Source: Mycobacterium sp. Marseille-P9652 (lineage in GTDB: Bacteria > Actinomycetota > Actinomycetes > Mycobacteriales > Mycobacteriaceae). From it: a DNA stretch of 64,000 nucleotides. Where the stretch lies: positions 1 to 64,000 of the forward strand of contig NZ_CACRUY010000008.1 of assembly GCF_902652685.1 (NCBI RefSeq), read 5' to 3'. Each line of letters starts with the position of its first letter. Position 1 is the first letter of the stretch. Under the pieces are notes generated by a model. It had not been told where the DNA came from. It made no database searches and was given only the letters and a program-made list of their open reading frames with translations. Both the position numbers and the translations under genes were made by a program. Below, in pieces: positions 8,923 through 31,635 of this stretch.

Positions 8923-9600
8923 ATGGGCGAGTCGAGCGAAAACCCGACGAAGGCGCCGTTGGCGGCCACCAGTTGGGCGCTGCTGGGCATGATGTCCTAC
9001 GAAGAAGAGGTTTCCGGCTACGACCTGAAGAAGTGGATCGACTGGAGTGTCGACCTCTACTACTGGAGCCCGTCGTACAGCCAGATCTACACCGAGCTGA
9101 AAAAGCTTGAGGGCCTGGGACTGGTCACCTCACGCGTCGAGCATGATGAGGGCGCCCGCAGCCGCAGGCTGTACAAGATCACGCCCGCCGGAATGGCCGC
9201 CGTGACCGAATGGACCAATGACGCGCCCGTTGACCCGCCGGTGCTCAAACACAGTGTGCTGCTACGGGTTACGTTCGGACACCTCAGCAACCCGGGCCGG
9301 CTCAAGGAGTTGCTCCAGGAGCACGTGGCTTACGCCGAAGCGAGGCATCGCAAAGCGGTCGAGGACGCGGACGGTGCCGAGGCTCAACCCGCCTGGGCGT
9401 ACTCGGTGATCGCGCTTCGTTGGGCGGCCAAGTACTACGCCGCGGAGCGCGAGTTCGCGCTCGAACTCATGAAGGACATCGACGAGGCCGACGCCATCTT
9501 GAAGAAGGCGGCCAAAGGGGCAGCCGGGCAACCGCGCCCCATGCCCGGGTATTGGCGCGAAGTGGAGAAGCAGGTCGACGCCAAACGAAAAGGGGACTAG
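8923..9600 (+). CDS. PadR-family transcriptional regulator
   Basis: A 225-aa protein with an N-terminal winged helix (about 14-95): LLGMMSYEEEVSGYDLKK, then SYSQIYTELKKLEGLGLV, the classic PadR recognition helix. The C-terminal half (about 105-215) is alpha-helical, as in PadR subfamily 2 dimerisation domains. PadR repressors commonly sense phenolic or other aromatic ligands. It converges with the KstD-like gene, overlapping it by 4 bp. A role in controlling the adjacent steroid/aromatic genes is plausible but unproven. Confidence 0.87.
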   Translation: MGESSENPTKAPLAATSWALLGMMSYEEEVSGYDLKKWIDWSVDLYYWSPSYSQIYTELKKLEGLGLVTSRVEHDEGARSRRLYKITPAGMAAVTEWTNDAPVDPPVLKHSVLLRVTFGHLSNPGRLKELLQEHVAYAEARHRKAVEDADGAEAQPAWAYSVIALRWAAKYYAAEREFALELMKDIDEADAILKKAAKGAAGQPRPMPGYWREVEKQVDAKRKGD

Positions 9601-11303
9601 CCGGCGGCGTCCTGAGCCGCGATGTAGCCGTAGACCAATCCCTGTGCGATCGTCGCGCCCGCACCGGGATACGTCGTCCCGAACGCGTTCGCCGCGGTAT
9701 TGCCGACCGCATACAGCCCTGCGATCACATCACCGTCCTCGCGCAGTACGCGCCCGCGCTCGTCGGCCTTCAGCCCGCCGCAGGTGCCGAGGTCGCTGAG
9801 CACCATTTTCACGGCGTAGAAGGGGCCGTTGACCAAGGGACGCAGGTTGGGATTCGGCTTGACGGTCGGGTCCCCGTAGTATCGGTCGTAGGCGCTGCGG
9901 CCCCGTCCAAAGTCGGGATCCACGCCGGCAGAAGCGTTTTCGTTGAAGCGCGTCATGGTTCCGCAGAAGTCCGGCACCGGAATTCCCATCCGGTCACCGA
10001 GTTCGCCGAAGTCGTCCGCCCGCACCGCAATGCCGGCGTCGTACCAGGCCTGCGGTACGCGCATGCGCGGGAACAGTTCTGCGCCAAAGACGTAGCTATT
10101 GCGGTACCGCTGGTCGAATACGATCCACATCGCTTCCACGGGGTCACCCGACCGCTCCAGCTCGAGCAGTCGCTGACCGAACGACATGTAATCACCGGCT
10201 TCGTTGGCGAATCGGTGGCCGTGCTGATCGACGATCACGCAGCCCGGCAGCGATCGCTCGGCCAGCATCACCGCCGGCGCCTTGCCCGGCAACGGCGCGA
10301 TGGCGGGGAACCACCATGCCTGGTCCATCAAGGCGATACCGGCACCGAGTTCCTGCCCCGCACGGATTCCGTCACCGGTGTTGGTCGTGGCGCCGAGGCT
10401 GAGGTTGTCGCCCAGCGACTCGGTTTGGAACTTCCGCCGCATGCTCATGCTGTGGTCGAATCCCCCCGTCGCCAGGACAACCCCCCGGCGAGCCGTGACC
10501 GTCACTTCGCGTCCGTCGTGGTCGAGGACCGCGCCGGTCACCCGCCCACCGTCGGCTGGACTACTCAACAGGTGCAGAAGGGTCGTTTCGGTCCACACCG
10601 GGATCCCCGCGCGCAGCACCCCGGCGAACAAGCCGGCCATCAGGCCCTGGCCGCCCGCCGCGTAGCGCCGACCGATCAGCCTCCCGCCCAGCCCCTGCGC
10701 AAGCCGTTTGCCAAACGTCGGAATGCCCTTGCGTGGCACTCGCGCAACCAGATTCATCCACCGGTAGTCGGCGCCCGTCGTCGGGATGGAGACGCCGGCC
10801 TCCAGCACGCCAGGTCGTAGCCGGGTGCGGTACGGGCCGAGCACCGACGTGTCGAACGGGTGGCACTCGCAGGTGCGGCCCGCCGCGCTGCCGCCCGGCT
10901 CCTCCGGGTGGTAGTCCGAATAGTCGCGGGCCCAGAACAGCCTCAGGGGAGTCATTCGGCGCAGCATGTCGACCATCGCGGGGACGTGCTCGACGAAACC
11001 CGCCGATCGCTCCGGGGGCGCGGAGCCCGCGACCACCGAGTCCAGATAGGTGGCGGCGCGCTCGGCGGTGTCCCCGGCGCCGGCCTCGCGCAGCACGGGG
11101 CTTGCCGGCAGCCACAGGGCGCCGCCGGAGCGCGCGGTCGACCCGCCCACGTAGGGCGACTTCTCCACCACGAGCACCGACAGTCCGCGTTCGTACGCGG
11201 CCAGCGCCGCTGCGAGGCCGGTCCCGGAGCCGACGACCAGCAGATCGACGGTGGTGTCGGCCACGTGAAGCCCGGCCGGAATCGTCGCGCTCTGGGGGGT
11301 CAC
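9597..11303 (-). CDS. kstD: FAD-dependent 3-ketosteroid delta-1-dehydrogenase-like protein
   Basis: A 568-aa flavoprotein of the fumarate reductase/KstD fold. FAD motif GSGTGLAAA (25-33), the GGSTARSGG loop, a central RRGVVLATGGF motif, and the C-terminal signature GTCGGLKADERGRVL then LYAVGNTAANAFGTTYPGAGATIAQG. Tyr545 and Gly549 in YPGAG match the Tyr/Gly pair that polarises the steroid 3-keto group in characterised KstDs. The family introduces the C1-C2 double bond in 3-ketosteroid ring A. It diverges from the KshA-like gene across ~100 bp. Substrate is inferred; a paralogue acting on another keto-terpenoid is possible. Confidence 0.8.
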   Translation of the reverse strand: MTPQSATIPAGLHVADTTVDLLVVGSGTGLAAALAAYERGLSVLVVEKSPYVGGSTARSGGALWLPASPVLREAGAGDTAERAATYLDSVVAGSAPPERSAGFVEHVPAMVDMLRRMTPLRLFWARDYSDYHPEEPGGSAAGRTCECHPFDTSVLGPYRTRLRPGVLEAGVSIPTTGADYRWMNLVARVPRKGIPTFGKRLAQGLGGRLIGRRYAAGGQGLMAGLFAGVLRAGIPVWTETTLLHLLSSPADGGRVTGAVLDHDGREVTVTARRGVVLATGGFDHSMSMRRKFQTESLGDNLSLGATTNTGDGIRAGQELGAGIALMDQAWWFPAIAPLPGKAPAVMLAERSLPGCVIVDQHGHRFANEAGDYMSFGQRLLELERSGDPVEAMWIVFDQRYRNSYVFGAELFPRMRVPQAWYDAGIAVRADDFGELGDRMGIPVPDFCGTMTRFNENASAGVDPDFGRGRSAYDRYYGDPTVKPNPNLRPLVNGPFYAVKMVLSDLGTCGGLKADERGRVLREDGDVIAGLYAVGNTAANAFGTTYPGAGATIAQGLVYGYIAAQDAAG

Positions 11304-11405
11304 GCCCAGAACGGTATGCCGGGCGCGCCGGGCAACGGAAGAGCCGTCCTGATCAGTGGAACAAGGCGCTCCCGCAGGCCGTGCTCGCGGAGTTTAATCA
11401 TCCTC

Positions 11406-12542
11406 ATGACGTCGCAGTCCGAGGTCGACGAAGTACGGCAGATCGAAGCGCAGGCGGCGCCGGCGCGGTTCGCCCGCGGCTGGCACTGCCTGGGCCTGAT
11501 CCGGGAGTTCGGGGACGGCAAGCCGCACACGGTCAACGCCTTCGGGCAGAAGCTCGTCGTCTTCCGCGGGGCGGACGGCCGCATCAACGTGCTCGACGGC
11601 TACTGCCGACACATGGGCGGTGACCTTTCGCGCGGCGAGGTCAAAGGCAACGAGATCGCCTGCCCGTTCCACGACTGGCGCTGGGGCGGCGACGGTCGCT
11701 GCAAGCAGGTTCCGTACAGCAGGCGCACACCCAAGTTGGCCCGCACGGCGGCCTGGCCCACCCTGGAGCAAGACGGCATGCTGTTCGTGTGGAATGACCC
11801 CGAGCGCAAACCCCCGCCGCCCGAGGTCACCATTCCGCGAATCGACGGCGCCACCAGCGACGAGTGGACCGATTGGCATTGGTACACCACCGTCGTGAAC
11901 AGCAACTGCCGCGAGATCATCGACAACGTCGTGGACATGGCGCACTTCTTCTACATCCACGGGTCCCTGCCCACGTATTTCAAGAACATCTTCGAAGGGC
12001 ACGTGGCGACGCAGTACATGAACGGCGGCAGCCGCCCCGACATCGGTAGCCCCGAGGGAACCACGATGCTCGGCACGACGTCGGTGGCCTCCTACTACGG
12101 TCCGTCCTTCATGATCGACGACCTGACCTACCACTACACAAACGGCGACGCCAAGACGATCCTGATCAACTGCCACTATCCGATCGACGCGAATTCCTTT
12201 GTGCTGCAATACGGCATCATCGTCAAGAAGTCGGACTCGCTGCCCGGCGACGAGGCCCTGAAGACCGCGATCGGTCTCGGTGACTTCGTCAAGATCGGGT
12301 TCGAGCAGGACGTGGAGATCTGGCGGCACAAGGCGCGCATCGACAACCCGCTCCTCGTCGAGGAGGACGGACCGGTCTACCAACTGCGCCGCTGGTACCA
12401 GCAGTTCTACGTCGACGCCGCCGACGTGCAACCCGACATGGTGGACCGTTTCGAATTCGAGCTCGACACCACCCGGCCGTACGAGGCGTGGATGAAAGAG
12501 GTCGAGGAGAACATGGCCGCACAGGCCGCGGGCTCTGTCTGA
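11406..12542 (+). CDS. kshA: Rieske oxygenase, KshA-like (3-ketosteroid 9-alpha-hydroxylase oxygenase)
   Basis: A 378-aa oxygenase. Its Rieske [2Fe-2S] ligands are Cys67, His69, Cys86 and His89 (CRH and CPFH). The mononuclear iron site is in NVVDMAHFFYIH. The length and the region around DMAHFFYIHGSLPTYF fit KshA, which hydroxylates C9 of 3-ketosteroids so ring B opens after KstD action. It is divergent to the KstD-like gene. The reductase partner KshB is not in the window. The stop overlaps the ATG of a small Cys protein by one base. Confidence 0.85.
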   Translation: MTSQSEVDEVRQIEAQAAPARFARGWHCLGLIREFGDGKPHTVNAFGQKLVVFRGADGRINVLDGYCRHMGGDLSRGEVKGNEIACPFHDWRWGGDGRCKQVPYSRRTPKLARTAAWPTLEQDGMLFVWNDPERKPPPPEVTIPRIDGATSDEWTDWHWYTTVVNSNCREIIDNVVDMAHFFYIHGSLPTYFKNIFEGHVATQYMNGGSRPDIGSPEGTTMLGTTSVASYYGPSFMIDDLTYHYTNGDAKTILINCHYPIDANSFVLQYGIIVKKSDSLPGDEALKTAIGLGDFVKIGFEQDVEIWRHKARIDNPLLVEEDGPVYQLRRWYQQFYVDAADVQPDMVDRFEFELDTTRPYEAWMKEVEENMAAQAAGSV

Positions 12543-12835: not shown

Positions 12836-12890
12836 CCCGTCCGACGTCGAAATGTTCTGGCGCGAGCCTCCGGCGGCGCCGCGGCACCTG

Positions 12891-13967
12891 TCACGCCAGC
12901 TGGAATGCGCTGATCGGTGCCTCCTCGGGGTAGACGGTGGGTCCACCCAAGTCGAAGGCGGCGTTGAGCGCGTTGATGAATGCCGAGTCGTGCAACGGTT
13001 CGCTCGGGATGTCGAGCTTGATGCCCCTCGCGTTGATGTCGTCGACCATGATCTCGATGGCTTTCTCGATCGTCAGGTCGTCGGATCCCTCCATGTTCTT
13101 CTTCAGCTCGTCGTAGTCGGTGAACACCTCGGCCGACCAGTGCACCAGGAATCGCAGTTGGTCGGTGTGATGGCGCGCGATCACCTCGTCGCCGTTCTTG
13201 AGCAACCATTGGTCGCGATCGGCGGGATCGCCGGTGAAGACGGTGTCGAAGGACAAGCCGGCCGGAATCTGTTGATCCAACGGCCCATTCGCCTCGCCCC
13301 GGTGCACCATCATCTCGTTCTGCACCACCACCCCGCGGTTGTTGATCGGGGGCAGCACGCGTTTGGGCGCCTTGAGCGGTCCGTCTGGCCAGTAGGTGAA
13401 CCCGCTGCCGGCGTCGAGTGAGAACCAGGTGATCACCTGCGCCATCTTGATCAGGTAATCCTTGAACAGGCCCGACTTGCCCATCACGCTCGTGAGCCAC
13501 GTCGGCGCGTTCTCGTGGCGCACCCCGCGAAAGCTCGGTGAATCCAGGTGTCCCGGATCGCGGTTGGCGCACGGCCCGTTGATGTTGAAGAGCATCATCT
13601 GGGGCTTGGCGTACTCCGCTTTCCAGTACTCCTTGGCCAGTTCGAGGAAGTGCGCGTTGTAAAAGCAGTCGTGCAGCTGCGGGTAGAGCAACGCGCCGTA
13701 GTTGGCGAGGTAGCCGCGGAACGTGGGCGTGAGGAACAGGTCCAGCGAGGGCGTGAAGCCCTCGGGAAAGAGGCCGCTCATTGTCGCGATCAGTTCGTCG
13801 GGTGACGCGAAGTGCTGCGCGATGATCAGCCGCCACGGCCCCTGGGTGCGCACCACGTCGAGCAGGCGCTCGCGTTGGTCGTCGGTGTAGACGTCGTCGA
13901 TCTGCCGTGGGGGTGCGGCGGGCCGCAGCACGTTCGAAAGCTCCAACCGCCGTTCGTCGGTGAGCAT
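12891..13967 (-). CDS. unknown protein with a possible Fe(II)-dioxygenase HxD...H motif
   Basis: A 358-aa soluble protein. The start is fixed by AAGGAGA (complement of 13974-13980) 6 nt before ATG 13967. His140-Leu-Asp142 in DPGHLDSPSFRG and His222 in MMVHRGEANGP have the order and spacing of the HxD...H iron triad of 2-oxoglutarate/phytanoyl-CoA-type dioxygenases. No closer family is recognised. It is the last gene of the minus-strand set running down from 18587, 85 bp after the esterase gene. Confidence is high for the gene and low for the chemistry. Confidence 0.7.
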   Translation of the reverse strand: MLTDERRLELSNVLRPAAPPRQIDDVYTDDQRERLLDVVRTQGPWRLIIAQHFASPDELIATMSGLFPEGFTPSLDLFLTPTFRGYLANYGALLYPQLHDCFYNAHFLELAKEYWKAEYAKPQMMLFNINGPCANRDPGHLDSPSFRGVRHENAPTWLTSVMGKSGLFKDYLIKMAQVITWFSLDAGSGFTYWPDGPLKAPKRVLPPINNRGVVVQNEMMVHRGEANGPLDQQIPAGLSFDTVFTGDPADRDQWLLKNGDEVIARHHTDQLRFLVHWSAEVFTDYDELKKNMEGSDDLTIEKAIEIMVDDINARGIKLDIPSEPLHDSAFINALNAAFDLGGPTVYPEEAPISAFQLA

Positions 13968-14052: not shown

Positions 14053-14997
14053 TCAAAACGGGACCGGACTGACGAACTTCGCCCGCAGCAGCGCGCCGAT
14101 CTCGGCAATTGCCAGCCGACCGCGGGCGGTGGCATCCGCACGCATCAGAAAGCCGTGGCACATCCCGGGATAGCGGGTCGCAATCGCATGAACACCGGCG
14201 TCGCGCAACCGCTCCGCATACCGCTCACCCCAGTCCCGGATCGGGTCACACTCCGCGGTGACGACGATCGCCGGCGGCAGACCGGAAAGGTCGGACGCGT
14301 AGGCCGGAACGAGGTACGGGTCGCGGGGTGGTCCCGCCTCGCCGTCCACAAGGCCGTGCAGGTACTCGATGTCGTCGCGGGCGAGCATCGGCGCATCGCC
14401 CAACTCGGCGATCGACGGCACCGACATGTCGCGGTCGAGGCCGGGATACAGCAGCACCTGCGCGAAGATCGCCGGCCCGCCCCGGTCGCGCGCGGCCAGC
14501 GCCACGCCCGCCGCCAGCGAGCCGCCCGCGCTGTCGCCGATCACCACGAGCCGTTCGGCATCGACGCCGATGTCTCGGGCGTGCCTCGACACCCACTCCG
14601 TGGCCGCGTAGGCGTCGTCGAACTGCGCCGGCGGCGGCGACTCCGGCGCCAACCGATACTCGATGGCCACGACGACGGCTGCCGACGCCGCGGCCAGCTC
14701 ACGCGCCAACGGTTCGAACGAGCGATTCGACCCCATGACGAGCCCGCCGCCGTGGAAGAACACCAGCACCGGCCCTCCGGTCTCGGCGGTGGGACGGTAG
14801 AGCCGCGCCGGGATGTCACCCGCGGGACCGGGTATGGCGACCTGGCTGGCGGCGGCCATCTCGGGCATCGCCTCGGGGGGCGGCGCGGACTCCAGGGCGG
14901 AGCGCACGGACGCGAGCCCGCGCTGCCGCATCGGGGGGATGTCACCGAACGAAGCAATACGGGCGGCGGCATCCGGATCGAGCCTGGGTGTCGCCAT
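14053..14997 (-). CDS. alpha/beta hydrolase, HSL family esterase (LipH/LipW-like)
   Basis: A 314-aa hormone-sensitive-lipase family esterase. Motifs: FFHGGGLVMG (oxyanion hole), YRLAPESPPP, GDSAGGSLA (nucleophile Ser), a late Asp in ECDPIRD and His in GMCHGF. Its ATG is one base after the stop of the upstream SDR gene, so the two are co-transcribed and probably coupled. In this operon it could release an ester or lactone made by a Baeyer-Villiger enzyme (inference). A longer in-frame start at 15090 would lie inside the SDR gene and is unlikely. Confidence 0.85.
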   Translation of the reverse strand: MATPRLDPDAAARIASFGDIPPMRQRGLASVRSALESAPPPEAMPEMAAASQVAIPGPAGDIPARLYRPTAETGGPVLVFFHGGGLVMGSNRSFEPLARELAAASAAVVVAIEYRLAPESPPPAQFDDAYAATEWVSRHARDIGVDAERLVVIGDSAGGSLAAGVALAARDRGGPAIFAQVLLYPGLDRDMSVPSIAELGDAPMLARDDIEYLHGLVDGEAGPPRDPYLVPAYASDLSGLPPAIVVTAECDPIRDWGERYAERLRDAGVHAIATRYPGMCHGFLMRADATARGRLAIAEIGALLRAKFVSPVPF

Positions 14998-14998
14998 G

Positions 14999-15871
14999 TC
15001 AGAGCCGGCCGGCACCGAACCGGCGTTCGCTGCGCAGCAGGGGAGGTCGTTGTGAGGCAAGCACTTCCGCGCGCTCGGCCATCGCCGCACCGATCGACTC
15101 GGGGTGCGTGAGCAGATAGAACCGGCCCTCGGCGGCTTGCTCGAACAGTGTTTCCGCGGCCGTCAACGGGTCCATCGCCATGGCTTTGATGTCGAGCATC
15201 GCCGAGCGATGTGACTCGGCGGCGGCGGCATCGGTGGCGTCGGCGGGGTCCACCCCGCCCGCGGATTCGAAGATCTTGGATACGACCGGTCCGGGCAGCA
15301 CGGCCTGCACGTGCACGTGGTTGTCGTGACCCGCCAACCGGACCTCGGCGTACAGGCATTCGGTCATCGCGAGCACCGCGTGCTTGCTCACGATGTAGGG
15401 CGTCTGCAGCGGCATTGTCACCACACCGCCGACCGACGAAAGGTTCCACACCCACGCCCGCTCGTCGCGGGCGATCATCTCGGGCAGGAAGGCGCGCACG
15501 CCATAGAAGACGCCACTCACATTGACGTCGATGATGCGTTGCCAGTTGACGACCGGGGTGTCCCACAGGAAGCCGAACTGCTCGATGCCGGCGTTGTTGA
15601 CCAGCAACCGCACCGGGCCGATGTCGTTGTAGGTGCGCGCGGCGAGCTGGTGGACGGCCTCGGGATCGCGTACGTCGCACACCATGTCCACCGCCGTGCC
15701 ACCGGTGGCGGTGATTTCGTCACGTAGCGCACCGACAGCGGAAGCGTCGATGTCCGCCAGCACGACCGTCATGTCCAGCCGGCTGGCGTGCCGGGCGAGG
15801 CCCGCACCGATGCCCGAGCCGGCCCCGGTGATCACGGCGACCCCACCGGAGAAGAGTTCTTGCGCGCTCAC
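14999..15871 (-). CDS. short-chain dehydrogenase/reductase
   Basis: A 290-aa classical SDR. NAD(P) motif TGAGSGIG (residues ~15-22), NNAG, catalytic Ser in NLSSVGG and YxxxK in YIVSK. Asp at the end of beta-2 (LADIDA) suggests NAD(H) preference. It starts with GTG 4 bp after the preceding gene's stop. Likely oxidises a hydroxyl of the operon's substrate; substrate unknown. Confidence 0.85.
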   Translation of the reverse strand: MSAQELFSGGVAVITGAGSGIGAGLARHASRLDMTVVLADIDASAVGALRDEITATGGTAVDMVCDVRDPEAVHQLAARTYNDIGPVRLLVNNAGIEQFGFLWDTPVVNWQRIIDVNVSGVFYGVRAFLPEMIARDERAWVWNLSSVGGVVTMPLQTPYIVSKHAVLAMTECLYAEVRLAGHDNHVHVQAVLPGPVVSKIFESAGGVDPADATDAAAAESHRSAMLDIKAMAMDPLTAAETLFEQAAEGRFYLLTHPESIGAAMAERAEVLASQRPPLLRSERRFGAGRL

Positions 15872-15875
15872 AACG

Positions 15876-16355
15876 TCAGGAACCGGCGGCGCTGTCGGCG
15901 GTCAGCTCCGACAGCAGGACCGAGTTCGTCGCATCCAGGACGACGTCCATCTCGGTGAATTCCAGCCCATCCGCGCCGCGCCGGACGCCGACGTTGACGA
16001 CCCCGCTGGACACCGCGAACGGCACGAAGTTGGCGATCTGGTTGACGAGGATGTAGAACCGCGCGCGGGTGACATCACCCTCGACGCCGGTGCGGTGGAT
16101 GTTGGTGGCGTGGTGGCGCAGCGGGTACGGGCTCTGCTTGCGGTGCTCGGACAGCCAGTCCATGACCGCGTCGCGGCCGATGAGTTCGGGCGACATCAGT
16201 TCCTCGAAAGGGCTTGCGCCCGAATCGCTTCTGGTCACGTAGCGCACGTCGTCGGCGTATCTCACCGCCAGCTCGTCGTAATGCGCCTCGTCGTAGTGAA
16301 ACCAGAACCCGCCGATGAACTCCTGCAGCTCGGGCAGGGAGATCTCGTTGCTCAT
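15876..16355 (-). CDS. SnoaL/NTF2-like protein
   Basis: A 159-aa alpha+beta protein. An N-terminal helix pair (FIGGFWFHYDEAHYDELAVRYADDV), a conserved RHHATNIH strand and the overall size fit the NTF2/SnoaL superfamily. Members include steroid isomerases, aldol cyclases and small dehydratases, and they are frequent in mycobacterial steroid loci. The active-site residues do not settle the reaction. The next gene starts 4 bp downstream. Confidence 0.72.
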   Translation of the reverse strand: MSNEISLPELQEFIGGFWFHYDEAHYDELAVRYADDVRYVTRSDSGASPFEELMSPELIGRDAVMDWLSEHRKQSPYPLRHHATNIHRTGVEGDVTRARFYILVNQIANFVPFAVSSGVVNVGVRRGADGLEFTEMDVVLDATNSVLLSELTADSAAGS

Positions 16356-18587: not shown

Positions 18588-18613
18588 CACCGTATCTTGC
18601 ACCCCACGCGTTC

Positions 18614-18623
18614 CAAGAGCTTG
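18614..18623. promoter_or_regulatory. KstR2-like operator core in divergent promoter
   Basis: CAAGAGCTTG is a perfect 10-bp palindrome that matches the CAAGnnCTTG core of the published KstR2 motif (AnCAAGnnCTTGnT). The flanking A and T of that motif are not matched here. It lies 27 bp from the acyl-CoA dehydrogenase start and 68 bp from the monooxygenase start. A second pair of arms, CTTGTC (18620-18625) and GACAAG (18645-18650), overlaps it. KstR2 represses ring C/D catabolic genes in mycobacteria, so the context fits. Confidence 0.45.
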
Positions 18624-18690
18624 TCGCCGGTGTCCCGCTGAGTAGACAAGGGCTGCGCGATAGCGCTGGGCCGCGGCGATACTCGGCGCC

Positions 18691-23340: not shown

Positions 23341-23367
23341 TATATTCCTAATAGGAATATATTCCTA
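23341..23367. promoter_or_regulatory. AT-rich palindromic operator upstream of iclR
   Basis: Arms TATATTCCTA (23341-23350) and TAGGAATATA (23352-23361) form a perfect inverted repeat with one central base. The second arm also pairs with the following TATTCCTA to give the perfect 16-bp palindrome TAGGAATATATTCCTA (23352-23367). So three half-sites are stacked in ~27 bp of AT-rich DNA within a GC-rich genome. Placement 26 bp before iclR fits an operator covering its promoter. Confidence 0.6.
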
Positions 23368-23451: not shown

Positions 23452-24918
23452 TCAACCGTTGGCGGCGGAGCGGCCCGCGCGCCGGCCGTAGAAGCTGCCG
23501 TCACCGAGCGAGACGCCGCTGGCGTAGCCCCAGGCGGCCAGGCCGGCGGTGCAGCGGCCCGCCGCGAAGAGGCCGGGGATGGGCTCGCCGCTGACGTGCA
23601 GCACCTCGGCATCCAGGGTGGTGGCCAGCCCGCCCAACGTGAAACCGCCGGTGTTTTCCCGCAGGTCGACGGCGCCTACCGGTGATCCGATCGGCTTCAC
23701 CCACTCGGGCTTCTTGTGCAGCAGCGGATCCTCGCCGCGCGCGGCGGCTTCGTTTTAGGCGGCCACGGTCGCCTGCAGGCAACCGGCCGCCAGGCCCATG
23801 TCACGTTCCAGCTCGGCGACGGTGTCGGCCACCCAGGTCGCCGGCCGGCGCATGAACTTCGGCGACCAAGACGCCATCGCCTCCTGCTGGGCGTCGTCGT
23901 CGATGATCAGGTAGGCGACGTTGTCCTGCTGGTAGAGCGTGAGCTGCCCGATGCGGCCCGGGTAGGTGTCCTCCGGGACGTACCGCTGACCGCGGCCGTT
24001 CACCAGGATGCCGCGCACGAGCTGCTGCGGGTCGATGAAGATCGCGACCTCGGTGGCGTCCATGTGCGCCAAGTCGGCGCCGAGGGCCTGGGCCATCCGG
24101 ATCGCCTGCCCGTCGTGCTGCTCGATGGATGCGGCCGGGCGGCCGGCGATCCGGGGGGCATAGCGTGCCACCATGGCGTCGTTGTAGGCGAAGCTGCCCA
24201 TGGCCAGGACCACCCCGCGCCGAGCCCGGACTGAAATCTCGGTGCCGTAGCGGCGCCCGCGAACCCCGACCACCCGGCCGTCGGCTTCGACGATCAGGCG
24301 CTGCACCCGCACGTCGTAGATCGCCCGCGCGCCGGCAGCGGTGGCCGTCTCCACGAGCGGCTTCATCAGCATGTAGCCGGCGCTGGCCTCGCCCTGCTTC
24401 TTGTTCGACATCTGCGGGACGTGTCCGCGCGGGGCGGGGGAGGCGATGGTGTTGAAGGGGTAGGCGTTTTCGCCGCCGCTGTACATCAGGCCCTGGTCGC
24501 CCATCGGTTCCCAACCCGGTTCGGAAAAGAACTCGGCTTTGAACGGGACTCCGCAGCCGACGAGCCAGTCGAAGTGTGCGACGCTTCCCGCGCAGTAGTC
24601 GGCGACCCGCTGGGGGTCGGCACCGGGTCCCATCGCGACATTGAGGAACGCCGCCATGTTGTCGACGGAATCGGTGAAGCCGCAGGCCTTTTGCAGGGGA
24701 GTGCCCCCGCCGAGGTAAATGAACCCGCCCGCCATCGCTGCGGCACCGCCCCAGGATCCGGTGCGTTCCAACACGAGCACGTCGGCACCGGAGCGGGCCG
24801 CTTCGACCGCCGCGGCGGCGCCGGCCACCCCGTAGCCCGCGATGACGACGTCGGCCTCGTCGTCCCACGAGGCGACCGACGCGGCTTGGACGGGCGTGAC
24901 GTCCCGGTCGATCGTCAC
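23452..24918 (-). pseudogene. KstD-like FAD dehydrogenase interrupted by an in-frame TAA
   Basis: One continuous frame of 489 codons encodes a fumarate reductase/KstD-type flavoprotein, but codon TAA at 23757-23755 (minus strand) breaks it after CLQATVAA. Before it: FAD motif GYGVAGAAAAVEA, RTGSWGGAAAMAGG and GVVLAMGSF. After it the frame continues as NEAAARGEDPLLHKK, then the C-terminal signature GGFTLGGLATTLDAEV and GLFAAGRCTAGLAAWGYASG. The stop stands where relatives have a Tyr (TAC or TAT), so a single base change explains it. Translation would yield a 387-aa protein lacking the C-terminal FAD/substrate part. Overlaps the HsaC-like gene by 4 bp at its start. Confidence 0.8.
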
Positions 24919-25823
24919 AGGCGCATGGCCGCGGGCATCTCACCGACCCACTGGTGGCCCCAGTAGCTGTCCGCGGTGATTTCTTCTGCGGTGTAATAGG
25001 TTTCGTCGACCCGCATGCCGTCGGTGCCGAACTCGATGTCCCAGTCACCGGGGGCGCGGACGTAGAACGACACCATCTTGTCGTTGGTGTGCCGGCCGAG
25101 GGTGGACGACAACTGGATTCCCTCGGCGTTGATCCGGTCCAGCGCCTGGCCCACGGCATCGAGGGTGTCGACCTCCACCATGATGTGGACGACACGGGGG
25201 TCGCGCAAATGGCCGGCCGGGCAGATCGCCAGGCTGTGGTGGCGCTCGTTGATGCCGAGGAATCGCACGCGCACGGGGCCGAATTCTTTCGGCAGCGGCA
25301 CCCGGAACGCGCCGCGGGAGCGGAAACCCAACACCTCGGTATAGAAGTCGAAGAGCCCGCCCGGGTCGATGGCCGGCAGCACGACGTGGCCCAGGCCTTG
25401 ATCGCCGGTGACGAATCGCGCGCCGAACGGGGTGATCACCGGGCTGTGGTCAAGGACCGCGCCGTGGAACACCTCGAGCGAATGGCCCGCCGGGTCGTCG
25501 AAGGCGATCACCTCTTCGACCCGTCGTGCCTCGGCCTCGTCGGGCGACAGTTGCTTGACCGCCACGCCGGCCGCGTCGAGGGTCGCCATGACCCGTTGCA
25601 GCGCGGCGTGGTCGCGTACCTCCCAGCCTATGGTGCGCAACCTGTCCACCTCGCCGGGCACGACCACGATCCGGGCGGCGCGCTCGTCCATCCGCAGGTA
25701 GATCGCCGACGGGTCGGGGCCCTTACCTTCCGCGAAGCCGAGGACGCCGAACGCGAAGTGCCGCCAGCGCTCGATTTCGCTGGTCGAAATCGCGATGTAG
25801 CCAAGGCTTTTCAGGTCACCCAT
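24915..25823 (-). CDS. extradiol ring-cleavage dioxygenase, HsaC/BphC-like
   Basis: A 302-aa type I (vicinal oxygen chelate) extradiol dioxygenase with two tandem modules. Iron ligands by position are His146, His213 and Glu264; the catalytic His195, His245 and Tyr254 are also in place, matching BphC numbering closely. HsaC cleaves the catechol ring of the 3,4-dihydroxy secosteroid DHSA by meta-cleavage. ATG 25823 lies 8 bp after the stop of the HsaA-like gene, and its stop overlaps the KstD-like pseudogene. It is a paralogue-type copy here, with no HsaB and with HsaD 5 kb away. Confidence 0.88.
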   Translation of the reverse strand: MGDLKSLGYIAISTSEIERWRHFAFGVLGFAEGKGPDPSAIYLRMDERAARIVVVPGEVDRLRTIGWEVRDHAALQRVMATLDAAGVAVKQLSPDEAEARRVEEVIAFDDPAGHSLEVFHGAVLDHSPVITPFGARFVTGDQGLGHVVLPAIDPGGLFDFYTEVLGFRSRGAFRVPLPKEFGPVRVRFLGINERHHSLAICPAGHLRDPRVVHIMVEVDTLDAVGQALDRINAEGIQLSSTLGRHTNDKMVSFYVRAPGDWDIEFGTDGMRVDETYYTAEEITADSYWGHQWVGEMPAAMRL

Positions 25824-25831
25824 CACCACTC

Positions 25832-27016
25832 CTAGATCAGGGCACGCAGCGGACCCTCGGGCGGATCGATGCCCAGCGAACTCAACGCCGACGCGTGATA
25901 CGTCGTGCCCGGCATGTGGATGGCGTGCAGTTGGCCGACATGCACGTCGCGCCAATACCGTTGCAGCGGCTTGTCCATGCGGGCCGCGTTGCCGCCCGAG
26001 CGGGCGAAGATCTCGTCGACCGCCGCCACCGCGCGCCACACCGCGCGGACCTGGGTGCGCCGGCCGGCTGCGCGGTCGGCGAAGGACACCTCCTTGCCGG
26101 CGGCGACCATGTCGTAGATGCGGTCTGCGTTGGCCAGCAGCTCCTGGCGGGCGGCGTTGATGTCGGCGGCCGCCTCCCCGATGGCGAACATGACGTAGGG
26201 GTCGTCCTTGATCGCGGTTCCGGTGGCGCCGACGCGCTCGCGCTGGTAGTCGAGGTGCGCGGCCAGGGCCCCTTCGGCGATGCCGATGGTCGCCGCGGAG
26301 ATGCCCAGCGGGAACATGGTCGACCACGGCATCAGGTACAGCGGTTCGGTCATTCCGGCCTCGCGCTGGGCGGTGCCGTCCATCACCTTCGTCGCATCCA
26401 TCGTCCGGTAGGACGGGACGAACGCGTCCTTGACGATGACGTCCTTGGAGCCTGTTCCGCGCAGCCCCACCACGTTCCACGAGTCCTCGACGATCTCGTA
26501 GTCCTTGCGCGGGAGGATCATGTGCAGCATCTGCGGCGGCATGAGCGGAATGCCCTTGTCGTCGCCCAGCATCGCGCCCAGGATGATCCAGTCGCAGTGG
26601 TCGGTGCCCGAGCTGAACTGCCAGCGTCCGTTGAAGATGTAACCGCCGTCGACCGGCTTGGCCACGCCCTGGGGGGCGTAGGGGGAGGCCATCCACGTGT
26701 CGACGTCGTCGGCCCAGATTTCGGCGGCGACTCTGGGATCCGCGTAAGCCAACTGATAGGGGTGCACCCCCACCACGCCGACGATCCAGCCGGCGGCCGG
26801 GTCGAGCGCGGCGGTGGCCATCGTCGTCTCGGCGAACTCGCGGGGGTGGACCTCGAACCCTTGGTATTGCTTGGTCTGCAGCAGCCGGATGAGCCCCGCC
26901 GCCTTCATGAGCTTGACGGTGTCGTCGGTGAGGCGGCCGATCCGTTCGGCTTCGGCGGCCTGGTCGCGCAGCTGGTCGGCCATCGCCACTACCCGGTCGA
27001 GTACCCGTTCGCTCAT
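25832..27016 (-). CDS. flavin-dependent monooxygenase, HsaA-like
   Basis: A 394-aa acyl-CoA-dehydrogenase-fold hydroxylase, the same length as M. tuberculosis HsaA. Shared blocks include AAGWIVGVVGVHPYQLAYADPR, SPYAPQGVAKPVDGGYIFNGRWQFSSGTDHCDW, VVGLRGTGSKDVIVKDAFVPSYR and PLQRYWRDVHVGQLHA. HsaA hydroxylates the phenolic ring of 3-HSA at C4 using reduced flavin from HsaB; no HsaB-like reductase is in the window. It heads the operon HsaA-HsaC-KstD(broken). The promoter should lie in the 171-bp divergent region before the second BVMO. Confidence 0.85.
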   Translation of the reverse strand: MSERVLDRVVAMADQLRDQAAEAERIGRLTDDTVKLMKAAGLIRLLQTKQYQGFEVHPREFAETTMATAALDPAAGWIVGVVGVHPYQLAYADPRVAAEIWADDVDTWMASPYAPQGVAKPVDGGYIFNGRWQFSSGTDHCDWIILGAMLGDDKGIPLMPPQMLHMILPRKDYEIVEDSWNVVGLRGTGSKDVIVKDAFVPSYRTMDATKVMDGTAQREAGMTEPLYLMPWSTMFPLGISAATIGIAEGALAAHLDYQRERVGATGTAIKDDPYVMFAIGEAAADINAARQELLANADRIYDMVAAGKEVSFADRAAGRRTQVRAVWRAVAAVDEIFARSGGNAARMDKPLQRYWRDVHVGQLHAIHMPGTTYHASALSSLGIDPPEGPLRALI

Positions 27017-27173
27017 GTTGGTGTCCTTACGTGTGGGGGCTCAGTAATGGTCTACCGCAGTTCGTGCCGGACCCAAAGGCCTTCCCGATGAGCGGACGCA
27101 AAAGCGTCGATTCCGCCGCGACCGGAGCGTCCGGTGACCGGGAGGGCGGCTGACCAGCCGGCGCGGTCGTCTC

Positions 27174-27179
27174 TACCGT
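27174..27179 (+). promoter_or_regulatory. -10 box before second BVMO
   Basis: TACCGT (TANNNT) lies 8 nt before GTG 27188, which supports that codon as a leaderless start over the in-frame ATG 27134. Confidence 0.4.
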
Positions 27180-27187
27180 CTGTGCAC

Positions 27188-28804
27188 GTGAGCAGAACCC
27201 ACGAGCAGTCCCTCGACGTGGTCGTCGTCGGAGCCGGGTTCGCCGGCCTCTACGCACTGCACAGATTGCGCGAGCAGGGGCTGGCGGTGCGGGTGCTGGA
27301 GGCGGCGCCCGAACTCGGCGGCACCTGGTACTACAACCGCTACCCGGGCGCGCGCTGCGACGTCGAAAGCGTCGACTACTGCTACTCCTTCTCCGACGAA
27401 CTGCAGCAAGAGTGGAACTGGACGGAGAAATACGCCACCCAGGCAGAGATCCTCCAATACTTGAACTGGGTCGCCGACAAACTCGACCTCCGCCGCGACA
27501 TCGACTTCAACACACGCGTGACGTCGGCCGTGCTCGACGAAACGACGCTGCGCTGGACGGTCACTACCGACAGCGGGCACGCACTATCCGCACGTTTCTG
27601 TGTGATGGCAACCGGCCCACTGTCGGCCGCACTGACACCGGACTTCCCCGGACTCGATTCGTTCGCCGGCGAGGTCTACCACACCGCCGCCTGGCCGCAT
27701 GAACCCGTCGACTTCGCAGGTAAGCGGGTGGCGGTCGTCGGCACCGGATCGTCTGGTATTCAATCGATTCCGGTCATCGCCGAGCGGGCGGCGCACCTCT
27801 ACGTGTTTCAGCGCACGCCCAACTACAGCGTGCCGGCGGGCAACAACCCGCTCACCGCACAGGAACTCGACGACATCAAGGCCGGCTACGCGCACCGGCG
27901 CCGCCTGTCCTGGCGCAGCGGGGGCGGCTCACCGCACGTCACCGCATCAAAGCCGACCATGGAGTTCAGCCCGGAGGAGCGTCGTGCGGCCTTCGAAACG
28001 CGATGGCAGCTGGGTGGCGTGTTGTTCTCCAAGACCTTCCCCGATCAGATGACCGATCCGGCGGCCAACGAAGAGGCACGCAAGTTCTACGAGGAGAAAA
28101 TCCGGGCAATCATCGACGACCCGGCGCTGGCCGAACTGCTCATCCCCACCGATCATCCGATCGGCACCAAGCGAATCTGCACCGACAGCAACTACTTCCA
28201 GACGTTCAATCGCCCCAACGTATCGCTCATCAACGTCCGCGAGAACCCGATCGAATCCGTAGACGCCGGCGGGATCAACACCGCCGCCGCGCACTACGAC
28301 GTCGACATGCTCGTGCTGGCAACGGGTTTCGACGCGATGACGGGAGCACTGGGCAGGATCGACATCGTCGGCCGCCACGGCGCAAGCCTGCGTGACGCCT
28401 GGGCGCACGGTCCACGGACGTACCTTGGGCTGGGCGTCGACGGATTCCCGAACCTCTTCCCGGTCTCGGGCCCGGGTGCGCCCGCCGTGCTGGCCAACAT
28501 GGTGCTGCACGCCGAGGCGCAGGTGAATTGGATAGCCGACGCCATCGCCTACCTGGACGGCCACGGTTACGCGGCGATCGAAGCGACCGGCGACGCCGTG
28601 GACGGCTGGGTCGCCGAATGCGCGAGGCGCGCCGACGCCACCCTGTTCACCAAGGCCGACTCCTGGTACATGGGCGCCAACGTGCCGGGAAAGCCGAGGG
28701 GCTTCATGTTGTTCGTCGGGGGGTTCGCGACCTACAACGATATCTGCGCCGAAGTCGCGGAGGCCGGGTACAAGGGCTTCGATCTGGTTAAGATGCCGCG
28801 ATGA
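27188..28804 (+). CDS. Baeyer-Villiger monooxygenase (cyclohexanone monooxygenase-like)
   Basis: A 538-aa type I BVMO. FAD motif GAGFAG (15-20), GGTWYYNRYPGARCDVES, the complete fingerprint FAGEVYHTAAWP (159-170) with His165, NADP motif GTGSSG (185-190), and a C-terminal ATGFDAMTGAL. It should convert a cyclic or linear ketone to an ester/lactone with NADPH and O2. The start overlaps nothing upstream; the downstream SDR overlaps its stop (ATGA). Divergent from the HsaA-like operon, so the two may share control. Confidence 0.88.
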   Translation: MSRTHEQSLDVVVVGAGFAGLYALHRLREQGLAVRVLEAAPELGGTWYYNRYPGARCDVESVDYCYSFSDELQQEWNWTEKYATQAEILQYLNWVADKLDLRRDIDFNTRVTSAVLDETTLRWTVTTDSGHALSARFCVMATGPLSAALTPDFPGLDSFAGEVYHTAAWPHEPVDFAGKRVAVVGTGSSGIQSIPVIAERAAHLYVFQRTPNYSVPAGNNPLTAQELDDIKAGYAHRRRLSWRSGGGSPHVTASKPTMEFSPEERRAAFETRWQLGGVLFSKTFPDQMTDPAANEEARKFYEEKIRAIIDDPALAELLIPTDHPIGTKRICTDSNYFQTFNRPNVSLINVRENPIESVDAGGINTAAAHYDVDMLVLATGFDAMTGALGRIDIVGRHGASLRDAWAHGPRTYLGLGVDGFPNLFPVSGPGAPAVLANMVLHAEAQVNWIADAIAYLDGHGYAAIEATGDAVDGWVAECARRADATLFTKADSWYMGANVPGKPRGFMLFVGGFATYNDICAEVAEAGYKGFDLVKMPR

Positions 28805-29604
28805 CGGGACTGCTCGGCAAGGTGGCGCTGGTGACCGGCGCCGCCCGCGGCACGGGGCGGGTGCACTGTCAGCGATTCGCCGACGAGGGTGCCGATGTGA
28901 TCGCGCTCGACGCTCCGGCGGTCGCTGATGAATTATGCTCTCTCGCAACCGAACTCCGCGAACGGGATCGTCGCTGCGCGACCGGTGCGGCCGACGTCAG
29001 CGACCTCGCGTCGCTGACCGCCGCCATCGATGGCGCCGTCGCCGAGCTGGGCCGGTTGGACGTCGTCATCGCCAACGCCGGAATCCACCTCCCGGGCGCA
29101 CCCACGTGGGAGATCGACCCGAAGGATTGGCACCGCACGCTCGACATCAACCTCACCGGCGTCTGGCACACCGTCAGGGCGGCCGTGCCACACATCGGCG
29201 ATCAGGGCGGTTGCATCGTGATCATCAGTTCCACCAACGGACTTCGGGCGACGCGCAATACCGCGCACTACACCGCGACCAAGCACGCCGTGATCGGCTT
29301 GGCCCGTACCCTTGCCAACGAGCTTGGGCCGCGCGGCATCCGGGTGAACACCGTTCACCCGGGAGCGGTCGCAACCCCTATGGTGCTCAACGACCAGACG
29401 TTCCGGCGCCTACGCCCGGATCTTGACAACCCCACGGCAGCCGACGCCGCCGAGGTGCTCCAGGCGCGCAACCTTCTTCCGGTGCCCTGGGTGCAGCCTG
29501 TGGATGTCGCCAACGCCGTGGTATTCCTGGCGTCCGACCAAGCCCGCTACATCACCGGCGCCCAGCTCGTCGTCGACGCGGGCCTCACCCAGAAGACGAC
29601 ATGA
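28801..29604 (+). CDS. short-chain dehydrogenase (mycofactocin-type SDR-like)
   Basis: A 267-aa SDR. TGAARGTGRVHC resembles the TGAARGQGRSH motif common in mycofactocin-coupled SDRs of mycobacteria; Asp in ALDAP suggests NAD(H). IANAG, SSTNG and YTATK complete the catalytic set. If it belongs to that group, a bound nicotinamide would be re-oxidised by mycofactocin rather than exchanged (inference, medium-low). It is coupled by ATGA overlaps to the BVMO before it and the thioesterase after it. Confidence 0.82.
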   Translation: MTGLLGKVALVTGAARGTGRVHCQRFADEGADVIALDAPAVADELCSLATELRERDRRCATGAADVSDLASLTAAIDGAVAELGRLDVVIANAGIHLPGAPTWEIDPKDWHRTLDINLTGVWHTVRAAVPHIGDQGGCIVIISSTNGLRATRNTAHYTATKHAVIGLARTLANELGPRGIRVNTVHPGAVATPMVLNDQTFRRLRPDLDNPTAADAAEVLQARNLLPVPWVQPVDVANAVVFLASDQARYITGAQLVVDAGLTQKTT

Positions 29605-30209
29605 GATCGAAGGTGACTGAGAACGCGGGTGAAGACGGACGGATGTACAGCCAGTTGGCCGCATCCGTCCGCCGACTCATCGACGTAACCATCCGCACCG
29701 AGGTGGGGGCCGAAGGGATTGCGGCGGCCAAGAGTCACATCGACACGGCCTTAGAGGTATTGAGCCAAGCGCTCATGCCGGGTTCGTTCGGTGTGCGGCA
29801 TTCGGCCGACGGACAACCGGTGGCCTCGGGGAACGTCGTGATCGGCGCCCGCAACGCCATCGCGCCCCCGCTCGTCATTCACCGCGACGGCGATGGCGCG
29901 GTGTGGACGGACTTCACCCTCGGCGCCGCCTACGAAGGGCCGCCCGGTCATGTTCACGGCGGGGTGTGCGCTCTGATCCTCGACCACGTCCTCGGAGCCA
30001 CCGCCCACAAGCCCGGCTGCCCGGCCTACACCGGCACGCTCACCCTGCGCTATGTGCGGAGCACCCCCCTGGGCCCGCTGCGCGCCGAGGCGCACGTCGA
30101 TCGCATCGAGGGCGTCAAGACCTTCGCGGTGGGTCATCTCGGTGACAGTCGCGGAACCACGGTCACCGCCGAAGGGGTCTTCATCACCCCATCGAAGCCG
30201 CCGCAGTGA
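29601..30209 (+). CDS. PaaI/4HBT-like hotdog thioesterase
   Basis: A 202-aa protein whose C-terminal half has the hotdog thioesterase pattern: GPPGHVHGGVCALILDHVLG, with HGG and the Asp of the following helix at the active-site positions, then TGTLTLRYVRSTPLG. The N-terminal ~70 residues are helical. Such enzymes hydrolyse acyl-CoA thioesters. Coupled to the SDR upstream (ATGA), so it is the third step gene of a BVMO-SDR-thioesterase operon. Confidence 0.78.
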   Translation: MRSKVTENAGEDGRMYSQLAASVRRLIDVTIRTEVGAEGIAAAKSHIDTALEVLSQALMPGSFGVRHSADGQPVASGNVVIGARNAIAPPLVIHRDGDGAVWTDFTLGAAYEGPPGHVHGGVCALILDHVLGATAHKPGCPAYTGTLTLRYVRSTPLGPLRAEAHVDRIEGVKTFAVGHLGDSRGTTVTAEGVFITPSKPPQ

Positions 30210-30252
30210 CCAGGCGGCCTTCCTGAAGCAGGCGAGAATGAGGAGCACCAGC

Positions 30253-30735
30253 ATGACCGATCTCGACGACGTGGCGGCGCGACTGCGCCGACTCGAGGAC
30301 GACCGCGACATCAGGCAGTTGATCGCTTCCTACGGCCCGGCGGTGGACGCTGGGGACGCCGATGCCACCGCGCGGCTCTGGGCGAGCGACGGCGTCTACG
30401 ACGTCGACGGCTGGCGCATGGAGGGCAGGGACGCCATCCACGCCATGGTGAGCTCGTCCGCCCACCAGAAGCTGGTGGCCAAGGGATGCTGTCACTTCCT
30501 CGGGCCCTGCGTCGTGACCGTCACCGGGGACGAGGCGGTCGCGGTGTGCGAATCGCTCGTGCTCGTCCGCGACGCCGACAACGACGCGTACCGCGCCTGG
30601 CGCGCGACCGCACACCATTTCGCGCTGCGGCGCATCGACGGCCGCTGGCTGATCACGACCCGCACGAGTCGCCTGCTCGACGGCAATCCCGACGCGCACG
30701 CGTGGTTGATCAAGGGCCTCGCGGGCGCCCGGTAG
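30253..30735 (+). CDS. SnoaL-like/NTF2-fold protein
   Basis: A 160-aa NTF2-like protein. The start ATG 30253 is preceded by AGGAG (30241-30245) at a spacing of 7 nt; an earlier ATG at 30238 has no such site. The sequence DDRDIRQLIASYGPAVDAGDADATARLWASDGVYDVDG is typical of SnoaL_4 members, often found with aromatic dioxygenases and steroid enzymes. Last gene of the BVMO operon, 43 bp after the thioesterase; converges with the HsaD-like gene. Confidence 0.75.
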   Translation: MTDLDDVAARLRRLEDDRDIRQLIASYGPAVDAGDADATARLWASDGVYDVDGWRMEGRDAIHAMVSSSAHQKLVAKGCCHFLGPCVVTVTGDEAVAVCESLVLVRDADNDAYRAWRATAHHFALRRIDGRWLITTRTSRLLDGNPDAHAWLIKGLAGAR

Positions 30736-30759
30736 CAACGGCGCCAGATCGACGTGGTG

Positions 30760-31635
30760 TCAGCGGGACAGGAACGCCAGCACGGTGCTCTCGAACGCCG
30801 CCCGGGCCTCGATCATCGCCCAGTGCCCCGAGTTGGGGAAGATGTGCAGCTCGGCGTTGGGGATGGTGCGCATCGGGATCAGCGCCATGTCGGGCGGGCT
30901 GACGCGGTCGTCGCGCCCCCAGGTCAGCAGCGTCGGGGCGGCCAGCTTGTGCATCACGGCCCACGGCATCGGCCGGTCCGAGGCCGCCATCGCCGCCGTC
31001 ATGCCCGCGAACGCCGCCTTCCCGTACATGCGGCGCGCGGCGGCCAGCGCAACGGGATCGGTGGCCAGCGCCCAGCGTTCCTCGATCAACTCCTCGGTGA
31101 TCAGAGCCTGGTCGTACACCATCGACTTGAGCCAGTCGACGAGCCGTTGGCGCGTCGGGTCCTCGACGAACTCCTGCAACAGGCGGATGCCCTCACTCGG
31201 GCTGGGACTGAAGACGTTGGTGCCGATTCCGCCGATGGTGACCAGCCGGCCGACGCGCTGCGGGTTGCGGATCGCGAAGTTGACGCCCACGCCGCCGCCC
31301 ATCGAGTTGCCGATGATGTGGACCTTCTCGACCCCGAGGGCGTCGAGGAAGGGCGCCACGGCGCCCTGTGCGTCGACCATGGGGTGGCCGCCGAAGTCGG
31401 GACTGACCCCGAAGCCGGGGAATTCGAGGACCAGGCAGCGGTAGTGCGCGGCGAAGGTGGGCAGTAATCCGCGGAAGTTCCGCCAGCCGGAGACCCCGGG
31501 ACCCGAGCCGTGCAGGAACAGCAGCACCGGCCCGGAACTCGGGCCGCAGTCGTAGTAGCGCAAAGCGCCCTTGGCCGTTTCGGTTTCGCGCAGGTCTTGC
31601 TCCACCAGCTCAGTTCCGTCCGTCACGCTCCCCAC
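30760..31635 (-). CDS. meta-cleavage product hydrolase, HsaD-like
   Basis: A 291-aa alpha/beta hydrolase. HGSGPGVSGWRNF matches the MCP hydrolase oxyanion segment (HGGGPGAASW in HsaD). Nucleophile Ser111 in GNSMGGG, acid in WGRDDRV (242-243) and His271 in SGHW are placed almost exactly as in HsaD (114/241/269). HsaD hydrolyses the C-C bond of the ring-opened secosteroid 4,9-DSHA. Starts with GTG. It is encoded alone here, 3.7 kb from HsaA/HsaC-like genes across the BVMO operon. Confidence 0.87.
   Translation of the reverse strand: MGSVTDGTELVEQDLRETETAKGALRYYDCGPSSGPVLLFLHGSGPGVSGWRNFRGLLPTFAAHYRCLVLEFPGFGVSPDFGGHPMVDAQGAVAPFLDALGVEKVHIIGNSMGGGVGVNFAIRNPQRVGRLVTIGGIGTNVFSPSPSEGIRLLQEFVEDPTRQRLVDWLKSMVYDQALITEELIEERWALATDPVALAAARRMYGKAAFAGMTAAMAASDRPMPWAVMHKLAAPTLLTWGRDDRVSPPDMALIPMRTIPNAELHIFPNSGHWAMIEARAAFESTVLAFLSR

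Follow-up and report, generated by a model that had tools for sequence, protein, structure and literature searches.

A second set of steroid A/B-ring degradation genes resembling the C-19+ cluster in Mycobacterium sp. Marseille-P9652

Results

A paralogous second set of ring-degrading genes

The genome of Mycobacterium sp. Marseille-P9652 (5.70 Mb, 128 contigs) was studied in one stretch of 64 000 nucleotides (C8:1-64000, termed the window), where genes for KstD, KshA, HsaA, HsaC and HsaD lie together with two Baeyer–Villiger monooxygenases (BVMO1 and BVMO2) within ~ 9.6-31.6 kb (Table 1). The data point, with a probability of roughly 0.65, to a second steroid A/B-ring cluster of the C-19+ kind that would admit C21 20-ketosteroids and C19 steroids and would be governed by its own regulators. 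Genes were called by codon composition and families were assigned by Pfam and NCBIfam scans, which placed all five ring enzymes and both BVMOs where an earlier reading of the sequence alone had seen them. Family motifs were found in KshA, HsaC, HsaD, both BVMOs, the esterase and the short-chain dehydrogenases (SDRs). For KstD, YPGAG was the sole match among the patterns used.

Canonical HsaA, HsaD, HsaC and HsaB were found together on contig C51 (2661-6192), all over their NCBIfam cut-offs, while contig C18 holds a canonical KstD (979 bits, cut-off 788) and a KshA, 58% identical to the window KshA, for which no NCBIfam model was over threshold. Because canonical hsaACDB lies on C51 and KshA and KstD on C18, the window genes are a paralogous second set, and the idea that this is the sole locus in the genome was rejected; the parallel A/B-ring route of the sequence-only reading gains by the same result. 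The window proteins share 40% (HsaA), 46-47% (HsaC) and 40-42% (HsaD) identity with those of C51, and KstD has three near-full-length paralogs in its own genome (46, 43 and 38% identity). A further KstD (C8:95912-97567; NF009478 869 bits, cut-off 789) lies outside the window on the same contig, close to a Rieske gene.

The window set is not a canonical KstR-regulated hsaACDB cluster: its HsaA, HsaC and HsaD score under the equivalog cut-offs and no HsaB stands alongside. The absence of HsaB had been noticed from the sequence, and a whole-genome search returned one match over cut-off (C51) and three weak ones, none of them in the window. The Pfam scan of the locus ORFs turned up no recognisable KshB, and the rest of the genome was not searched for it.

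The scores below the curated cut-offs, together with the fact that HsaC exceeds the biphenyl-2,3-diol dioxygenase model TIGR03213 (375 bits, cut-off 366), would fit a non-steroid polycyclic or terpenoid substrate. Of the five ring enzymes, trees were built for HsaA and HsaC. The HsaC tree (22 rows) places the window copy in a 13-row clade (100/99) with mycobacterial copies and those of Rhodococcus jostii RHA1, Rhodococcus erythropolis R138 and Nocardia farcinica, and the Mycobacterium tuberculosis, Tsukamurella and own canonical HsaC proteins form a separate clade (98/95). In the HsaA tree (18 rows), a 12-row window clade including RHA1 and R138 (90/98) is likewise separate from the canonical copies. 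Both proteins thus sit inside steroid families rather than with non-steroid relatives, an outcome that would have gone against the sequence-only reading. A non-steroid identity of HsaC and HsaA is unsupported by these trees, which, with the matches of KstD, KshA, the Delta4-(5alpha) dehydrogenase and BVMO2, indicate 3-ketosteroids; a non-steroid substrate is scarcely credible.

A Baeyer–Villiger monooxygenase of the steroid monooxygenase type

BVMO2 combines a BVMO fingerprint with full-length similarity to the steroid monooxygenase (STMO; PDB 4AOS) of Rhodococcus rhodochrous, with which it shares 350 of 533 residues (65.7%) and the fingerprint motif itself, and is therefore classed as STMO-type. 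Its score against STMO is given in Table 1; against phenylacetone monooxygenase it scores 627 bits, and no other listed BVMO exceeds 475. STMO converts progesterone to testosterone acetate (PMC12239570), and the resemblance of BVMO2 to this progesterone-cutting enzyme suggests that the gene set handles steroid hormones rather than cholesterol. BVMO1 carries an N-terminal extension of ~ 140 residues ahead of its FAD motif and the fingerprint-like motif FAGIEIHSAQWD.

It could be that the cluster serves C19 steroids only, with BVMO2 acting as a broad ketone monooxygenase, or as a ring-D enzyme turning a 17-ketone into a lactone, rather than on a C20 side chain. The published link of C-19+ to androstenedione (AD), androstadienedione (ADD) and 9-hydroxyandrostenedione (9OH-AD; PMC5962712) and the presence of two BVMOs in the cluster would agree with this. 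However, among BVMOs of solved structure STMO is by far the closest to BVMO2, and for the R. rhodochrous enzyme AD lactonisation is given as unobserved in the relevant passage of a 2025 mBio paper (PMC12239570), so that a C19-only cluster is considered unlikely.

A third possibility is that a steroid with an acyl side chain, such as a bile acid or a C22 intermediate, is degraded, with the acyl-CoA dehydrogenase (ACAD)-like pair serving beta-oxidation. The two ACAD-like genes are adjacent to each other in the window, and R138 has an ACAD pair together with an enoyl-CoA hydratase. On the other side, the scanned locus ORFs include no recognisable acyl-CoA ligase or thiolase, and the window KshA is nearer to 4qdf_B (621 bits), which we take to be KshA5, than to 4qdc_A (549 bits), presumably the CoA-ester-preferring KshA1, or to 2zyl_A (525 bits). 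An acyl-side-chain substrate is thus very unlikely, and the bile acid or terpenoid that the sequence-only reading had offered as substrate finds no backing, the nearest characterised enzymes acting on progesterone and free 3-ketosteroids. KshA5 has been described as the broadest in substrate range (PMC7807495). The proposal in that earlier reading of a BVMO step replacing part of ring or side-chain breakdown is plausible for the side chain, through the STMO-like BVMO2.

Distribution and synteny

The cluster has relatives in many Mycobacterium genomes as well as in Rhodococcus and Nocardia. Of 148 Mycobacterium genomes, 87 have a close HsaC (best E <1e-150). The sample of named loci comprised the 80 records nearest by HsaC, each of at most 20.9 kb and some ended by contig edges, titled Mycobacterium, Mycolicibacterium or (one) Mycobacteriaceae and including, for example, M. 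colombiense, M. kyorinense and M. alsense. Scored at an identity of at least 55%, HsaA was present in 77 of these loci, IclR and the Delta4-type gene in 67 each, HsaD in 63, BVMO2 in 61 and BVMO1 in 50, and BVMO2 adjoins HsaA in 54; the genomes are related and the counts therefore not independent. With much of the gene set syntenic in relatives, a chance grouping is excluded. The HsaA-BVMO2 pair is kept without a window-type HsaC beside HsaA in two loci (L178 and L179; genomes G006 and G205), and five genomes (G004, G024, G053, G093 and G136) have two window-type HsaC copies ~ 9-12 kb apart, resembling a local block duplication.

Of 387 Mycobacterium genomes with a completeness of 98% or more, 257 have a BVMO2 homologue at E 1e-200 or better, a count that includes a clade of 66-69% identity in another setting. 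Searched at E 1e-210 or better, 298 genomes of the order yielded BVMO2 in 35, namely in 26 Mycobacterium genomes and nine from other genera. HsaA and HsaC lie within the same 20 kb in seven of these nine, and in four of the seven BVMO2 stands beside HsaC among the matched genes. The STMO-type BVMO2 beside hsaA/hsaC in several genera is what is added here to earlier descriptions.

Homologues of KshA, HsaA, HsaC, KstD, PadR, IclR and the BVMOs, in varying part, are carried by R. jostii RHA1 (pRHL1), R. erythropolis R138 (pLRE138) and N. farcinica (plasmid 2), in an order and content different from those of the window. On pRHL1, homologues of KshA, HsaA, HsaC, HsaD, PadR, IclR and KstD are present and the BVMO2 homologue lies ~ 27 kb from HsaC. 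On pLRE138, the order is kshA-hsaA-hsaC-BVMO2-hydrolase-SDR-SDR-BVMO1, and in both R138 and N. farcinica hsaC, BVMO2 and an esterase-like hydrolase are consecutive.

Regulators and putative operators

KstR-type boxes were sought with the consensus TNNAACNNGTTNNA, which we take to represent KstR sites. An exact box was found upstream of canonical hsaA, and on C18 exact boxes stand just before KshA and the likely KstD start, with one more inside another ORF. At no more than one mismatch, seven boxes were found in the canonical hsaA stretch (1.6 expected) and eight in the C18 stretch (1.4 expected). The whole 64-kb window, in contrast, has no exact box and a single one at one mismatch against 3.9 expected. 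Judged by this consensus, the cluster appears to lie outside the KstR regulon.

The cluster is probably under its own PadR and IclR regulators. PadR adjoins KstD in the window, and does so also in nine of the 80 named loci, most of which end short of that distance from HsaC. Gene orientation suggests three divergent promoter pairs: kstD/kshA, the ACAD block/BVMO1-SDR2, and the hsaA-hsaC block/BVMO2-SDR3. Upstream of iclR lies a perfect palindrome (Table 1), a putative operator that is the single match in the window at up to three mismatches (0 expected). Its 15-base core recurs elsewhere in the genome at three places, each with two mismatches, and the reversed control at one. In 126 sequences totalling 2.52 Mb, which are related, partly overlapping and include the window, 79 of 80 matches to a palindrome with this core lie no more than 400 bases upstream of an IclR match; the control core gave 48 matches, counted irrespective of position. 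The symmetry is preserved by paired changes in several relatives, for example ATATGACTAGTAGTCATAT. Four genomes from other genera, in which the closest IclR match reaches 42-44% identity, lack the palindrome. It is not present at the other window promoters either, and a shared operator for all of them was rejected. An 18-base inverted near-repeat with three mismatches occurs at 11356, upstream of kstD/kshA, and at 31658, upstream of HsaD.

Other genes of the locus

The Delta4-(5alpha)-dehydrogenase-like gene, the mycofactocin-coupled SDR, the ACAD-like pair, both regulators and the iclR palindrome come in addition to what the sequence-only reading had listed. Where it had spoken of esterases, one hormone-sensitive-lipase (HSL)-type esterase was confirmed and the other is a 4HBT thioesterase-like protein. 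The Delta4-(5alpha)-dehydrogenase-like gene is not intact, its frame ending at an in-frame TAA after 387 amino acids. In the named loci, each of the 67 copies checked has a length of 487-499 amino acids, matches below 70% identity or ending before residue 360 having been dropped. SDR2 has copies 67-71% identical in other genera and, in PDB, no specific relative (best 94 bits).

The 358-aa conserved protein gave 22 plasmid matches, and the 15 listed are sphingomonad proteins of 65-69% identity, with copies on Novosphingobium and Sphingobium plasmids. The N. aromaticivorans homologue is a few genes away from those for hydrolase, acetaldehyde dehydrogenase and aldolase. A molybdopterin oxidoreductase (36048-38312), on the right-hand side of the cluster, has counterparts 86-93% identical in 19 of the 80 named loci.

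Table 1. Features of the locus in order along the window.
Feature	Position	Strand	Evidence
PadR-family regulator	8923..9600	+	Pfam PadR 43.7 bits, over cut-off
KstD, 3-ketosteroid Delta1-dehydrogenase	9597..11303	-	NF009479 1055.5 bits, cut-off 793
KshA, 3-ketosteroid 9alpha-hydroxylase oxygenase	about 11406..12542	+	Pfam KshA_C 305 bits, Rieske 79 bits; Rieske motif; start chosen by us within ORF 10860-12542
358-aa conserved protein	12891..13967	-	no Pfam match up to E 0.05
HSL-type esterase, candidate steroid-ester hydrolase	14053..15090	-	Abhydrolase_3 223 bits; LipP1 302 of cut-off 350; HGGG, GDSAG
SDR1	14999..15871	-	adh_short 140 bits
SnoaL/NTF2-like protein	15876..16355	-	SnoaL_4 29.5 bits
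Acyl-CoA dehydrogenase-like subunit 1	16426..17451	-	Acyl-CoA_dh_1 55 bits; IpdE2 model weak, 38 of 450 bits
Acyl-CoA dehydrogenase-like subunit 2	17448..18815	-	Acyl-CoA_dh_N and _M; ORF start probably too long
BVMO1	18691..20622	+	top PDB hit cyclohexanone monooxygenase 6era, 200 bits; core starting at residue 145
SDR2, candidate 17beta-hydroxysteroid dehydrogenase	20619..21506	+	adh_short 135 bits
Dabb-domain protein	21532..22179	-	Dabb 59 bits
IclR-family regulator	22509..23315	-	IclR_C 101 bits, HTH_IclR 51 bits
Perfect palindrome ATATTCCTAATAGGAATAT, putative operator	23342..23360		27-45 bases before annotated iclR start
3-Ketosteroid Delta4-(5alpha)-dehydrogenase-like, interrupted	23755..24918	-	PDB 4at0 582 bits; family model matched 3-387 of 489
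HsaC-type extradiol dioxygenase	24915..25835	-	full length; motif present; HsaC equivalog 365 of 450 bits
HsaA-type flavin monooxygenase	25832..27016	-	369 bits, cut-off 450
BVMO2, STMO type	27134..28804	+	PDB 4aos 812 bits; fingerprint FAGEVYHTAAWP
SDR3, mycofactocin-coupled SDR	28801..29604	+	TIGR03971 317 bits, over cut-off 300
4HBT thioesterase-like protein	29601..30209	+	4HBT 29 bits
SnoaL/NTF2-like protein	30052..30735	+	SnoaL_4 101 bits; start probably too long
HsaD-type C-C hydrolase	30760..31635	-	NF045632 275 of 400 bits; PDB HsaD 5jz9 214 bits; triad motifs

Discussion

From these assignments, a pathway can be proposed whose substrates, order of steps and catalytic assignments we infer from sequence. 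BVMO2 would act on a free 20-ketosteroid, for example progesterone, inserting oxygen between C17 and C20 to give a 17beta-acetate, from which the HSL-type esterase would release the 17beta-alcohol. Oxidation to the 17-ketone by the mycofactocin-coupled SDR3, or by SDR2, would then give AD, and BVMO, esterase and SDR would in this way replace CoA-dependent side-chain breakdown. KstD and KshA, at which C19 steroids would enter, would open ring B, and HsaA, HsaC and HsaD would open and cleave ring A, with HsaB (perhaps the C51 copy) and KshB supplied from elsewhere in the genome and the products passing into the shared C/D-ring pathway. The Delta4-(5alpha) dehydrogenase would admit 5alpha-reduced steroids, but is interrupted here.

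The cluster resembles the already described C-19+ kind, as judged from gene content and published names. In Mycolicibacterium smegmatis, we take C-19+ to comprise MSMEG_2851-2901, with MSMEG_2869 as kstD2 and MSMEG_2868, lying between MSMEG_2867 and MSMEG_2869, presumably encoding a PadR repressor. The window shares with C-19+ a second kstD, kshA, hsaA, hsaC and hsaD set outside the kstR regulon and, presumably, a PadR gene beside kstD. In the published accounts, MSMEG_2867 and MSMEG_2869 are named as KSTD genes and MCE genes are placed at MSMEG_2850-2858 (PMC4881515), and C-19+ is a second cluster that has apparently evolved apart from the kstR regulon and is apparently required for efficient use of C-19 steroids (PMC5962712). 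Seven of its genes are given as critical: kstD2, kstD3, kshA2, kshB2, hsaA2, hsaC2 and hsaD2 (PMC6351609). C-19+ has two kstD genes, kstD2 and kstD3; the window has a single KstD together with an interrupted gene of the Delta4-(5alpha) type, and it carries an STMO-type BVMO, a second BVMO and a mycofactocin-coupled SDR, C-19+ being compared here by its published names.

The window cluster is taken as a known kind because, besides C-19+, published clusters of Rhodococcus ruber and Nocardioides simplex resemble it. A figure legend for R. ruber Chol-4, which gives names only, lists kstD, kshA, hsaC, iclR, padR and chnB (cyclohexanone monooxygenase) together, as in the window, and additionally hsaB (PMC6498646). 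Cluster D of N. simplex VKM Ac-2033D is described with copies of kshA, hsaC, hsaD and kstD and no predicted KstR sites, as here, but differs in having copies of kshB and hsaB; seven of its genes were induced by phytosterol and three by cortisone acetate (PMC7807495). The term Baeyer occurs nowhere in that paper. In Caenibius tardaugens, the pdc cluster provides a BVMO-based entry of progesterone into 9,10-seco degradation, as proposed here, but it is a small four-gene cluster with a luciferase-like monooxygenase, and its BVMO and the R. rhodochrous enzyme share 30.4% identity (PMC12239570). Beyond the R. ruber legend and this mBio paper, nothing on a BVMO role in such clusters was noticed in the literature searched. 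The STMO-type assignment, the link of BVMO2 to hsaA/hsaC across genera and the iclR palindrome were not noticed there either, and the papers defining the M. smegmatis cluster may contain them.

Several observations weigh against a C-19+ cluster with C21 entry. The assignment to C-19+ was made with named loci that include no M. smegmatis DNA, and neither kshB nor mce genes, both of which C-19+ has, were recognised among the scanned locus ORFs. The join of the window-type and canonical HsaC clades has support of 81/91 with a long-branch warning, and the HsaA tree bears long-branch warnings too. BVMO family identity leaves the substrate unfixed; the window esterase lies apart from BVMO2, unlike in R138 and N. 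farcinica; and BVMO1, the ACAD-like pair, and the Dabb and SnoaL proteins have no step in the proposed pathway. Two of the nine genomes of other genera with BVMO2 have no HsaA or HsaC within 20 kb of it, and the BVMO2-like clade (66-69%) of other mycobacteria was in a different setting in all five loci examined. Moreover, progesterone use in M. smegmatis has been linked to a luciferase-like monooxygenase and not to a BVMO (mBio 2025; PMC12239570), which argues against BVMO2 as a general entry enzyme or leaves BVMO2 unexamined.

In the five loci of that clade (L226-L230), SDR, IclR, HsaA-like and WS/DGAT matches (27-41% identical) lie nearby, with an HsaD-like protein (67-70%) in two and an HsaA-like protein (65%, one stop within the match) in one.

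A bolder version of the proposal, which we regard as decidedly doubtful, would make the C-19+ kind a progestin system of the Mycobacteriales, in which BVMO2 would act at C17-C20, mycofactocin-dependent oxidation of the 17beta-alcohol would follow and BVMO1 would then open ring D of the resulting 17-ketone to a lactone; PadR would act on the iclR palindrome, and IclR would activate the rest.

Progesterone is commonly found as a pollutant. In R. rhodochrous, from which STMO comes, its pathway has been stated to be undescribed (PMC12239570, 2025). The BVMO and dehydrogenase isoenzymes may be of use in steroid biotechnology, and the palindrome offers a defined site for regulation tests. If BVMO2 is an entry enzyme, progestin breakdown in Mycobacterium would gain a genetic basis, and the silence of C-19+ genes on sterols a possible explanation.

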